NCBI RefSeq assembly: GCF_035987325.1
Contig: NZ_CP108488.1
Location: forward strand, 3,472,001 to 3,536,000
Length of the DNA stretch: 64,000 nucleotides
From: Streptomyces sp. NBC_01244
GTDB taxonomy: Bacteria > Actinomycetota > Actinomycetes > Streptomycetales > Streptomycetaceae
Reading direction: 5' to 3'
How positions within the stretch are numbered: the first letter of the stretch is position 1; the number at the start of each line of letters is the position of its first letter. Shown here one piece after another: positions 20,536 through 33,485 of this stretch. The notes under the pieces were generated by a model, which was given only the letters and a program-made list of their open reading frames with translations, had not been told where the DNA came from and did no database searches. The position numbers and the translations under genes were made by a program.

Positions 20536-21456
20536 TCAGCCGAACGGACCGCGGCGGGCCAGCGGGAGCCGCGGGGTGGGGACGAATTCGTCCTCCGCCG
20601 CCCCGCTGTCCTGGCGCAGGGCCGACATCACCATCAGCTGCGGGTCCTGGAGCAGCAGTCGCGCGTGGAGTGCCCGCAGGGCCGAGCCCGGCTCGACGCC
20701 GAGCTCCTGGACCACACGGGCGCGCTGGACCCCGTACACCGTCAGCGCCTCGTTGCCCCGGTCCGAGCGGTAGAGCGCGAGCATCAGCAGCCACAGGAAG
20801 CGCTCCCGCAGCGGGTACTTGTCCACCGCGTAGTACAGGTACGGAACGGCGTTGCGGTGCCTGCCCAGCTCCAGTTCCAGCTCGGCGCGCACCTCCATGT
20901 CGGCCAGGAAGCGCTCTTGGCGGTAGAGCCGTTCACGGTCGAGCATGGGCCCCTCGAGCCCTTCCGCGAGCGGCCCCGTGGACATGGTGCGCGCCTTTTC
21001 CAGCAGCCCGACCGCCTGCAGGATCTCGCCCTTGCGCGCGGCGGCTATGCCTGCGGCCGCCAGCCGTTCGTACTCGTAGAGATCCACTTCGGAGTCGCCG
21101 ATGTCCATCCGGTAGCCGCCGGAAGACCACTCCAGGACGACTCCCCGGTCGCCGCCCTTGCCGCCCCCGTCGGCCGACAACAGGCCGCGCAGGCCCGAGA
21201 CGGACTTCTGGATCAGGTTCTTCGCGTAGGCCGGATAGTCCTCCCCCCAGAGGGCCTCGATCAGCTGATCGACACCGGTCTCCAGACCGGGCCTGAGTAA
21301 CAGCACTGCCAGCAGGGCCCGTTGCTTGGGCGGACCCAGCTCCAGGACCTTCGTTCCCCGATTGGTCTGCAGCGGTCCGAGGAGACGGAACCGCAGTCGC
21401 GACGAGCATCCGTCGCCTTCCTTGAAGCCGCGCTCGCGCAGCAATACACCAGACAT
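20536..21456 (-). CDS. SARP-family transcriptional activator (small, BTAD type) with a TTA codon
   Basis: The product is about 306 residues. ATG at 21456 was chosen because GGGGGAG lies 6 bases upstream. Residues 18-105 form the OmpR-like winged helix of SARPs (FRLLGPLQTNRG...LGPPKQRALLAVLLLRPG...LWGEDYP); residues 110-260 form the bacterial transcriptional activation domain. There is no NB-ARC or TPR extension, so it is a small SARP like ActII-ORF4 or RedD. Leu53 is encoded by TTA (21298-21300 on the minus strand), the only TTA I noticed in the window, implying dependence on the bldA tRNA. It is divergent from the afsA operon, its most likely target. SARPs activate secondary-metabolite genes. 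Confidence 0.88.
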   Translation of the reverse strand: MSGVLLRERGFKEGDGCSSRLRFRLLGPLQTNRGTKVLELGPPKQRALLAVLLLRPGLETGVDQLIEALWGEDYPAYAKNLIQKSVSGLRGLLSADGGGKGGDRGVVLEWSSGGYRMDIGDSEVDLYEYERLAAAGIAAARKGEILQAVGLLEKARTMSTGPLAEGLEGPMLDRERLYRQERFLADMEVRAELELELGRHRNAVPYLYYAVDKYPLRERFLWLLMLALYRSDRGNEALTVYGVQRARVVQELGVEPGSALRALHARLLLQDPQLMVMSALRQDSGAAEDEFVPTPRLPLARRGPFG

Positions 21457-21474
21457 TTCTACTCCCCCAAGTAA

Positions 21475-21489
21475 AACCTTCGTAAGGCT
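21475..21489. promoter_or_regulatory. Candidate signal-receptor operator upstream of the SARP gene
   Basis: AACCTTCGTAAGGCT is an imperfect palindrome (ACCTT/AAGGCT halves) in the SARP leader, 18 bases upstream of its ATG. It resembles the ACCTTC...GAAGGT type operators bound by TetR-family receptors of the furan (methylenomycin) type. That resemblance is from memory and the match is imperfect. The rest of the 290-bp SARP-afsA spacer shows only a weak TTGACG box at 21556-21561 and no gene. Confidence 0.35.
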
Positions 21490-32134: not shown

Positions 32135-32159
32135 TCCGTCCGGCGCGAGGGAGAGAGAC

Positions 32160-33485
32160 ATGCTGGGATTCGGAGTGACGGCGCTCATGCTGGTGGGCTC
32201 CGCCGCCGTCCACTACTACCTGTGGATCCGCCTGGTCCGTGACACGACCGGGCCGGGGACGACCGTGCGGCGGCTGGGCACGTGGGGGGTGGTCCTGTCG
32301 GCGCTGCTCGCTCCCGGGACCCGGATCCTCACCCCGCTGTTCGATCCCTCGGACGGAGGTGGCGGCCGGTTCCTGGCGTGGCCCGGCTACGTCCTGATCG
32401 GAGTGCTGCTCTACCTGCTGCCGACGCTGGTGATACTCGAACTGCCGCGGGCGCTCGCGCTGCGCACGTGGCGGCGTGCCGAGCGGCAGACGGATGCGAC
32501 TCCGGTGCCGGTGTCTGTGTCGGTGCCGGTGCCGGTGTCTGCGTCTGCGTCTGCGTCTGCGTCTGCGTCTGCGTCTGTCGAGTCGGCGCAGGTGGCACCG
32601 GCCCCGGCAGAGGCCGGGGCGGCCGCCGGGGCGGCGGACCGTCTGGTCGGCCGGCGGCTCTTCCTCGGCCGGGCGGTGGGCACCCTGGCCGGGGCCACCG
32701 CCCTCGGCACCGTGGGCTACGGCATGTCCTCGGCGCTCGGGGACCCGCTGATCAAGCGCGTACCGGTCACCCTCGCCAAGATGAACCCGCGCCTGGCCGG
32801 TCTGCGGATCGCGGTCGTCAGCGACATCCACCTGGGGCCGCTCCTCGGCCGCGCCCACACCGAGCGGATCGTCCGGATGGTCAACGGGCTGCAGGCCGAC
32901 CTGGTGACGATCGTCGGCGATCTCGCCGACGGAACGGCGTCCCAGCTGGGGCCCGCGGCCCGGCCGCTGAAGGGACTCGAATCGCGTTACGGGAACTTCT
33001 TCGTCACCGGCAACCACGAGTACCTCTACGACGGGGTCGAGGACTGGCTGGACGAGATGCGCAACGTCGGCGTCCGCCCGCTGGTGAACGAACGCGTGGA
33101 GATCCGGCACAACGGGGCCTACCTCGACCTGGCCGGGGTCGAGGACCTCGCCGGGGAGGACCACGGCCGGGGGCCCGACCTCGGGAAGGCCCTGGGCGGA
33201 CGGGACCTGTCGCGTCCCGTCGTGCTCCTCGCCCACCAGCCGGTGTTCGCCGAGGAGGCCGCCCGGCACGGGGTGGACCTCCAGTTGTCCGGCCACACCC
33301 ACGGCGGGCAGATGTTCCCGCTGACCGCGATCACCGAGCTGGCCAACCCGGTCAACTCCGGGCTCGGCAAGGTGGACGAGACCCAGGTGTACGTGACGAA
33401 CGGGGCGGGCTTCTTCGGCCCACCGGTCCGGGTCGGCGCCCCGGCGGACATCACCCTGCTGGAACTGCGTTCCCCGCAGGCCTAA
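32160..33485 (+). CDS. Membrane-anchored metallophosphoesterase
   Basis: The product is about 441 residues, starting at ATG 32160 after GGGAGAGAG. Three or four N-terminal hydrophobic segments (about 1-100) come first, then a basic/Ser-Ala linker containing a Ser-Ala repeat (SASASASASASAS), a Tat-like RRLFLGR segment with another hydrophobic stretch (near 160-195), then the metallophosphoesterase domain with SDIHLG (near 220), GDLADG, GNHEY, LAHQP and SGHTHGGQ. This is the YkuE/YaeI-like family; the site would face outside. It is the last gene of the block. The substrate is unknown; a phospholipid or phosphorylated precursor is possible. Confidence 0.85.
   Translation: MLGFGVTALMLVGSAAVHYYLWIRLVRDTTGPGTTVRRLGTWGVVLSALLAPGTRILTPLFDPSDGGGGRFLAWPGYVLIGVLLYLLPTLVILELPRALALRTWRRAERQTDATPVPVSVSVPVPVSASASASASASASVESAQVAPAPAEAGAAAGAADRLVGRRLFLGRAVGTLAGATALGTVGYGMSSALGDPLIKRVPVTLAKMNPRLAGLRIAVVSDIHLGPLLGRAHTERIVRMVNGLQADLVTIVGDLADGTASQLGPAARPLKGLESRYGNFFVTGNHEYLYDGVEDWLDEMRNVGVRPLVNERVEIRHNGAYLDLAGVEDLAGEDHGRGPDLGKALGGRDLSRPVVLLAHQPVFAEEAARHGVDLQLSGHTHGGQMFPLTAITELANPVNSGLGKVDETQVYVTNGAGFFGPPVRVGAPADITLLELRSPQA
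32541..32576 (+). repeat. Six-fold GCGTCT hexanucleotide repeat inside the metallophosphoesterase gene
   Basis: Six exact copies of GCGTCT (32541-32576), preceded by related GTGTCT/GTGCCG units, encode Ser-Ala repeats in the linker. Changes in copy number would keep the frame. Confidence 0.9.

Follow-up and report, generated by a model that had tools for sequence, protein, structure and literature searches.

A recurring actinobacterial variant of the AfsA-type butenolide locus with two MMPL exporters and a secreted-type hydrolase

Signals of the AfsA type are usually regarded as freely diffusible. What, then, could be the role of two membrane exporters and a secreted-type hydrolase encoded beside a gene for butenolide synthesis, and do these genes belong together at all? 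The question is raised by a stretch of 64,000 nucleotides from Streptomyces sp. NBC_01244 (C1:3472001-3536000; the whole stretch is called the window below), part of a 10.0-Mb genome that contains four AfsA loci. Here an AfsA homologue leads a packed operon that continues with genes for a HAD phosphatase, an FAD monooxygenase (FMO), an RND-type exporter of the MMPL family (MMPL1), an extended SDR, a secreted-type alpha/beta hydrolase (ABH), a second exporter (MMPL2) and a metallophosphoesterase. The first six genes, from AfsA to ABH, overlap by 4, 4, 1, 26 and 4 bases, and gaps of 65 and 25 bases lie between ABH and MMPL2 and between MMPL2 and the metallophosphoesterase, respectively. An earlier note on this DNA had already proposed such an operon, and every name that it gave is supported by the gene calls and by a Pfam scan of the ten proteins encoded between 20536 and 34085, which were also scored with NCBIfam models. 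Its starting point, position 20536, has to be corrected: the operon itself begins at 21747, and 20536 marks the distal end of a divergently oriented gene for a SARP-family activator, which was absent from the earlier text. Comparison with other genomes answers the second part of the question. The locus is a recurring actinobacterial cassette, a variant of the AfsA-type butenolide locus and no lone curiosity.

Seven core genes (AfsA, HAD, FMO, MMPL1, SDR, ABH and MMPL2) are co-located in 12 genomes belonging to two families, with AfsA identity down to 43%. Comparison with other genomes, which the earlier note had called for, supports its view that afsA heads a coherent unit in which two MMPL pumps and a secreted-type hydrolase are included. 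The 12 cassettes are those of the window and of loci L009, L010, L011, L012, L014, L045, L054, L069, L070, L089 and L097. A search of the genome collection returned six loci, four of which (L009-L012) contain the entire set together with the SARP gene. In Streptomyces avicenniae, the core set of L014 is 50-61% identical to that of the window, with no match to SARP in the stretch fetched, and in a second locus (L013), AfsA, ABH and a SARP-type gene were the sole members found. Further cassettes came from genomes G753 and G715, both of another family, and from G254 and G813. Gene order is constant save for SDR, which is shifted in L045, L069 and L070; the same three loci carry a second ABH gene. 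Eleven of the 12 cassettes, all but L014, have a SARP-type gene transcribed divergently from afsA. The metallophosphoesterase is present in nine of them; it was not found in L069 and L070, and the stretch of L014 ends 0.5 kb past MMPL2. A third MMPL gene is located beyond SARP in the two cassettes from genus g34 of family f17 (L069, 323-1999; L070, 13-2136).

The linkage of ABH to AfsA is specific to one group of hydrolases. A survey of the class (394 genomes) detected clade AfsA (E <1e-70) in three genomes, namely G715, G753 and that of the window, and ABH of at least 43% identity in the same three. Close ABHs were detected in the window's genome, G813 and G333 in an order survey (293 genomes) and in G753, G715 and G1026 in a survey of family f17 (200 genomes); in all three surveys, scoring was restricted to a few first-look candidates from each genome. 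In each of the six surveyed genomes that have an ABH of at least 43% identity, the gene adjoins AfsA. For this ABH clade, that is the opposite of the situation that the earlier note had named as refuting its view, MMPL and hydrolase genes usually found without afsA. Distant ABHs (30-40% identity, 24 such matches) had no match to any other cassette gene beside them in the 18 loci fetched.

Among 392 Streptomyces genomes, AfsA of at least 44% identity near full length is present in 16, with one additional partial match at 48%; identity then drops sharply, and the rest, at 40% or less, are referred to as ordinary AfsAs. Seven of these 17 genomes with clade AfsA have the full cassette and ten have a different locus, designated type B. 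In the eight type B loci that reach the relevant side, HAD and FMO lie near AfsA, accompanied by MMPL1 in seven of the eight and by SDR in two. Neither ABH nor MMPL2 was in view in the type B stretches fetched, most of which extend no more than about 6 kb from AfsA towards HAD and FMO. Because these stretches are short, the whole type B genomes were searched for ABH. At a threshold of 1e-30, none of the ten contained it, nor did any of 12 whole genomes with ordinary AfsA; the same query does find cassette genomes in the three surveys described above. Neither MMPL nor ABH was detected at any of 17 ordinary AfsA loci (L056-L063, L091-L093, L096 and L099-L103; nine of the stretches are shorter than 20 kb).

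The type B loci also have neighbours of their own. In seven of the ten, the AfsA clade stands beside a histidine kinase, a SagB-family nitroreductase and a SARP, and in five a SagD/YcaO TOMM protein is present as well. The full set of AfsA and TOMM genes occurs in L047, L048, L050, L051 and L090, and L046 and L049 lack a YcaO match. Judging from this gene content, an AfsA-linked TOMM cluster is possible in these loci.

In the window's proteins, signature residues are intact. The window AfsA passes the cut-off of the NCBIfam model ScbA_BarX (212 versus 200 bits), matches Pfam AfsA in two stretches and keeps E74/R77/Q78 and E245/R248/Q249, at positions shared by 95% or more of the 36 sequences aligned; the conserved Glu/Arg positions have a catalytic role in ScbA. 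In a tree of these 36 proteins, the 12 cassette AfsAs, nine of type B and that of L013 share one branch (100/98), within which the cassette AfsAs alone do not form one clade, type B sequences being interspersed (the tree is unrooted). HAD matches TIGR02247 with 111 bits, under the cut-off of 125, and its motif DYGGVLTNP recurs in the listed copies from cassettes, type B loci and Rhodococcus. The closest PDB relatives of FMO are polyketide and rifampin oxygenases, and SDR has weaker, sub-cut-off matches to 2-alkyl-3-oxoalkanoate reductases. The two MMPLs, 40% identical to each other, carry Asp-Tyr motifs in both halves (LAIDYAL and LSMDYGV in MMPL1, LGVDYSL and LSMDYEV in MMPL2); such motifs have a proton-relay role in MMPL proteins.

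The window ABH begins with a hydrophobic, signal-peptide-like stretch (residues 7-25, from hydropathy only) and has exactly four cysteines, all invariant across 44 aligned sequences; taken together, these features would suit an extracellular enzyme with two disulphides. The triad S212/D339/H367 is present. The nucleophile was assigned by a sequence-profile match to PDB, in which the best match is 5hdf (7e-28): Ser212 aligns with the serine of its LAGYSLG, and 5hdp reads LAGYALG at this place. In an unrooted tree of 35 ABHs, a branch supported at 100/98 parts 17 AfsA-linked proteins, including that of Rhodococcus, from 18 free-standing ones. The nucleophile position is occupied by Ser in 13 of the AfsA-linked proteins, His in two, Asp in one and Gly in one. 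Serine is replaced by Gly in two of the 18 free-standing ABHs, and the best 120 of 228 database homologues comprise 94 with Ser, 11 with His, eight with Gly and seven with Asp. Several of the changes concern paired copies. In the tandem loci L045, L069 and L070, ABH1 is devoid of the nucleophile serine and ABH2 retains it; in S. avicenniae, the ABH of L013 has Gly and that of L014 has Ser; and two more apparent pairs, each from the same organism, combine Ser with Gly (P0023 and P0042) and His with Ser (P0033 and P0057). The loss of serine from one of two copies suggests that an active ABH is paired with a catalytically altered partner.

The local regulator is likely to be the SARP, for which an operator-like sequence can be recognised. 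The chain of three repeats before the window's afsA (shuffle p 0.002) agrees with published SARP sites, as far as these are given in the available parts of PMC10936776 and PMC10972967, and the distance from its 3' repeat to the -10-like CAAGGT, judged by eye, is 9 bp versus about 8 bp for SARP sites. TYCAG-type chains of at least three repeats, phased by 11-12 bp, precede afsA in 11 of 13 cassette-type loci (the 12 cassettes and L013; shuffle p at most 0.008). A chain above one was found in none of 26 controls, namely eight type B loci, 13 ordinary loci including L064, and five further ordinary loci; the scan left aside the type B loci L046 and L090, in which afsA is at the contig end, and for L099-L103 the 300 bases scanned were counted back from the match instead of from the start codon. 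With a strict 11-bp spacing, most loci gave no significant result (window p 0.44), because the spacing alternates between 11 and 12. The TYCAG pattern was picked after the sequences had been viewed, and its p-values are consequently optimistic. The sole cassette-type locus added after the pattern was fixed, L104, has four repeats spaced 11, 11 and 12 (p 0.001). AfsR and PhoP likewise bind direct repeats, according to the available part of PMC10972967, so that binding by the local SARP is presumptive.

The absence of an adjacent receptor gene, which the earlier note had pointed out, holds for the window as a whole. No ScbR-type protein above the family cut-off is encoded there, and the sole TetR match to this family is weak (near 52169; 52 bits versus a cut-off of 150). 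Elsewhere the genome encodes five ScbR-type proteins above the cut-off: four map to replicon C2 and the fifth to C1:5.04 Mb, in the neighbourhood of another afsA. Four of the five, used as BLAST queries, gave no match in the window or in any cassette or type B stretch; the same queries match six of the 17 ordinary AfsA loci (L056 through a 57-residue match at the end of the stretch). By the family cut-off and the receptor BLAST, no flanking ArpA-like repressors of the MmfR/MmyR type are present at the locus.

A reordered relative is found in Rhodococcus fascians. Five records of the plasmid collection match ABH, and only two, both of R. fascians D188, do so with more than 50% identity. The linear plasmid pFiD188 (L064, 49723-68670) codes, in this order, for a TetR protein, an MMPL, ABH, AfsA, HAD, an MFS protein, an FAD monooxygenase and an aldo/keto reductase; ABH is 55% and AfsA 34% identical to the window's proteins, and the TetR protein matches the ScbR family weakly (47 bits versus a cut-off of 150). 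Beside this operon are genes for a LysR regulator, a LysE translocator, and argininosuccinate lyase and synthase. These neighbours resemble the att locus of the R. fascians virulence plasmid, which reportedly acts via an autoregulatory compound.

Table 1. Features of the AfsA-led operon and its divergent regulator (positions in the window)
Feature	Position	Strand	Description
SARP gene	20536..21456	-	Small AfsR/SARP-family activator, Trans_reg_C and BTAD, divergent from afsA; Pfam BTAD 111 bits
Putative SARP operator	21667..21711	+	TCAG / TCCAG / TCAA, 12 and 11 bp apart, then -10-like CAAGGT
AfsA-type butenolide synthase	21747..22730	+	327 aa, two hotdog domains; Pfam AfsA 121 bits
HAD phosphatase	22727..23401	+	Pfam Hydrolase 69 bits; motif DYGGVLTNP
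FMO, aromatic-hydroxylase type	23398..25107	+	569 aa; Pfam FAD_binding_3 240 bits
MMPL1, RND-type exporter	25107..27470	+	Pfam MMPL 264 bits
Extended SDR, NAD-dependent epimerase family	27445..28545	+	Pfam Epimerase 103 bits
ABH, secreted-type alpha/beta hydrolase	28542..29717	+	Pfam Abhydrolase_6 41 bits
MMPL2, RND-type exporter	29783..32134	+	Pfam MMPL 227 bits
Metallophosphoesterase, accessory member	32160..33485	+	Hydrophobic N-terminal part; Pfam Metallophos 56 bits

A tRNA-Arg gene is located at 20307-20380, and two dynamin-like genes and a thioester-domain protein gene lie farther upstream (14541-19983, minus strand). The cassette adjoins tRNA-Arg in the window and in L009, and an insertion site there is possible. 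The upstream orf18355 recurs only in L009 among the loci compared. On the other side, a gene for a prokaryotic phospholipase A2 (PLA2; 33507-34085, minus strand) is convergent with the operon; this gene and orf34113 recur only in the genome of L009 (L098), in a comparison where five other cassettes show at least 2.5 kb of downstream flank.

As to the function of the exporters and the hydrolase, we consider it somewhat probable that a SARP-switched operon makes an AfsA-derived small lipid, which the MMPLs would export and ABH would process outside the cell. The divergent SARP would bind the phased repeats and turn the operon on, as the operator-like sequence and the gene layout suggest. From the chemistry of the family and the residues kept, AfsA would join a beta-ketoacyl thioester to dihydroxyacetone phosphate, giving a butenolide phosphate that HAD would dephosphorylate. 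FMO may oxidise the product and SDR reduce it. MMPL1 and MMPL2, in which the Asp-Tyr motifs of proton-driven MMPLs are intact, would move it across the membrane. The secreted ABH would then act outside, most likely by releasing the active compound from a precursor that is an ester or a lactone; its location is better supported than the direction of the reaction. A hormone and an antibiotic-like compound are about equally likely as the product.

Several observations weigh against this proposal. The 65-base gap 5' of MMPL2 could hold a second promoter. Ten of the 17 Streptomyces genomes with clade AfsA have a type B locus without ABH, and export and processing as proposed here are therefore not obligatory for the AfsA clade. 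HAD relatives (33-39% identity) are present at four and FMO relatives (34-45%) at seven of the 17 ordinary AfsA loci, which makes these two parts unspecific to the cassette. In L104 (genus g70), MMPL2 and SDR are undetectable, and the matches of L012 to SARP and FMO (8837-9741 and 11652-13329, respectively) are both divided between two frames, frame breaks that are either real in this strain or an artefact of the draft sequence. The repeat chains of L012 and L045 have two members only and are not significant (p 0.07 and 0.18). The nucleophile serine is absent from four of the 17 AfsA-linked ABHs, and the Rhodococcus AfsA, which has a long branch, is not part of the branch that holds the cassette AfsAs. 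In L104, at 8478-10798, the hydrolase gene is followed by genes for an ECF-type ABC transporter, at the place taken by MMPL2 in other cassettes.

It is also quite possible that the product is an antibiotic-like or otherwise specialised metabolite, with the SARP as pathway switch and the MMPLs serving for export or self-protection. This alternative concerns the role only and overlaps the explanation given above. A SARP, not an ArpA-type receptor, adjoins the operon, and some relatives of the AfsA clade lie beside TOMM-type or P450/reductase genes. In the available part of PMC12593393, an early role in methylenomycin synthesis is proposed for MmyD, an AvrD-like and butenolide-synthase-like protein whose deletion abolishes the product. 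An MMPL gene adjoining a calcimycin regulator is described as a putative efflux pump in the available part of a review (PMC6930871), and this is the MMPL that the review mentions. However, no ketosynthase, acyl carrier or assembly-line protein is among the ten scanned proteins (20536-34085), and small SARPs are found within known gamma-butyrolactone (GBL) clusters too, as the available part of PMC10972967 indicates.

A different task for ABH would be turnover: by opening a lactone or ester outside the cell, the enzyme would shorten the lifetime of the signal rather than mature it. Enzymes that end lactone signals exist in other systems, and the generic serine-hydrolase fold of ABH, with its weak matches to an enol-lactonase model and to dienelactone hydrolase, is compatible with such an activity. 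We nevertheless regard turnover as unlikely, given that the abh gene overlaps biosynthetic genes in the operon and that the loss of serine from one of two duplicated copies fits simple degradation poorly.

Another proposal would place the MMPLs, ABH and the metallophosphoesterase in cell-envelope lipid traffic, merely co-regulated with AfsA. The closest NCBIfam model for both MMPLs is indeed MmpL3 (NF052608), at 385 and 334 bits far under its cut-off of 1400, and a phospholipase gene is next door. The constant position of the close ABH clade beside AfsA in the surveyed genomes argues against this proposal, as does the absence of the PLA2 gene from the five other cassettes whose downstream flank is visible for at least 2.5 kb (L054, L069, L070, L089 and L097), and it appears improbable. 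Finally, an ordinary AfsA locus with chance neighbours is practically ruled out by the synteny of the seven core genes across 12 genomes from two families.

To return to a SARP-switched operon with an exported and externally processed product, its logic might be that of a prohormone: a butenolide-type precursor would be exported by the paired MMPLs, and a secreted hydrolase dedicated to this task would activate it outside the cell, in certain species together with a serine-less partner, and the same module would be present in rearranged form on the R. fascians virulence plasmid. We advance this extension tentatively and consider it rather doubtful. Searches of the open-access literature on AfsA or butenolide synthases together with MMPL turned up no description of such a gene set, and searches on export of AfsA-type signals, judged by the titles listed, no dedicated exporter. 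The cassette offers the MMPLs as candidate exporters and ABH as a candidate for processing outside the cell, all of them linked to afsA in two families. In addition, clade AfsA, clade ABH and the phased repeats constitute a sequence signature for finding more members.

Parts of the cassette have parallels in known systems. In mycobacteria, the MmpL3 pump works together with a secreted mycolyltransferase, an alpha/beta hydrolase acting on the exported lipid; the analogy lies in the combination of an MMPL with a secreted alpha/beta hydrolase, and the window MMPLs are far below the MmpL3 cut-off. The nearest solved sequence relative of the window ABH, with the nucleophile position aligned, is 5hdf/5hdp, which we take to be the StnA hydrolase of the streptonigrin pathway, a different pathway. 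In methylenomycin synthesis, a butenolide-forming step by MmyD feeds a flavin-rich pathway, and a later lactone hydrolysis is proposed for MmyT; unlike the window's proteins, MmyD is AvrD-like, with a proposed pentulose substrate and an antibiotic product, and MmyT is likened to type II thioesterases (available part of PMC12593393).

The biosynthetic part of the operon also has counterparts. The SabA/SabP/SabD butenolides of Streptomyces ansochromogenes involve, as in the window, an AfsA-like enzyme, a phosphatase and a dehydrogenase; the available part of PMC6930871 mentions no MMPL or hydrolase for them, whereas both are in the window operon. The GBL loci (afsA/arpA, scbA/scbR, jadW1-W3 and gblA/gblR/gblE) have the AfsA-family synthase in common with the window and, in some cases, an NAD-epimerase-family partner (GblE/JadW2; available part of PMC5735094); the window differs in that it has no adjacent receptor and possesses exporters, a hydrolase and a SARP-type operator. 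The MmfLHP and AhfaLHP systems (methylenomycin-furan, AHFCA) likewise bring together an AfsA homologue, a phosphatase and a flavin enzyme (available part of PMC7037778), although, compared by size and type, AhfaH has 384 aa and the FAD_binding_3 enzyme of the window 569 aa. These systems have two TetR-type repressors, whereas the window operon has a SARP and, in addition, an SDR, two MMPLs and a secreted-type hydrolase.

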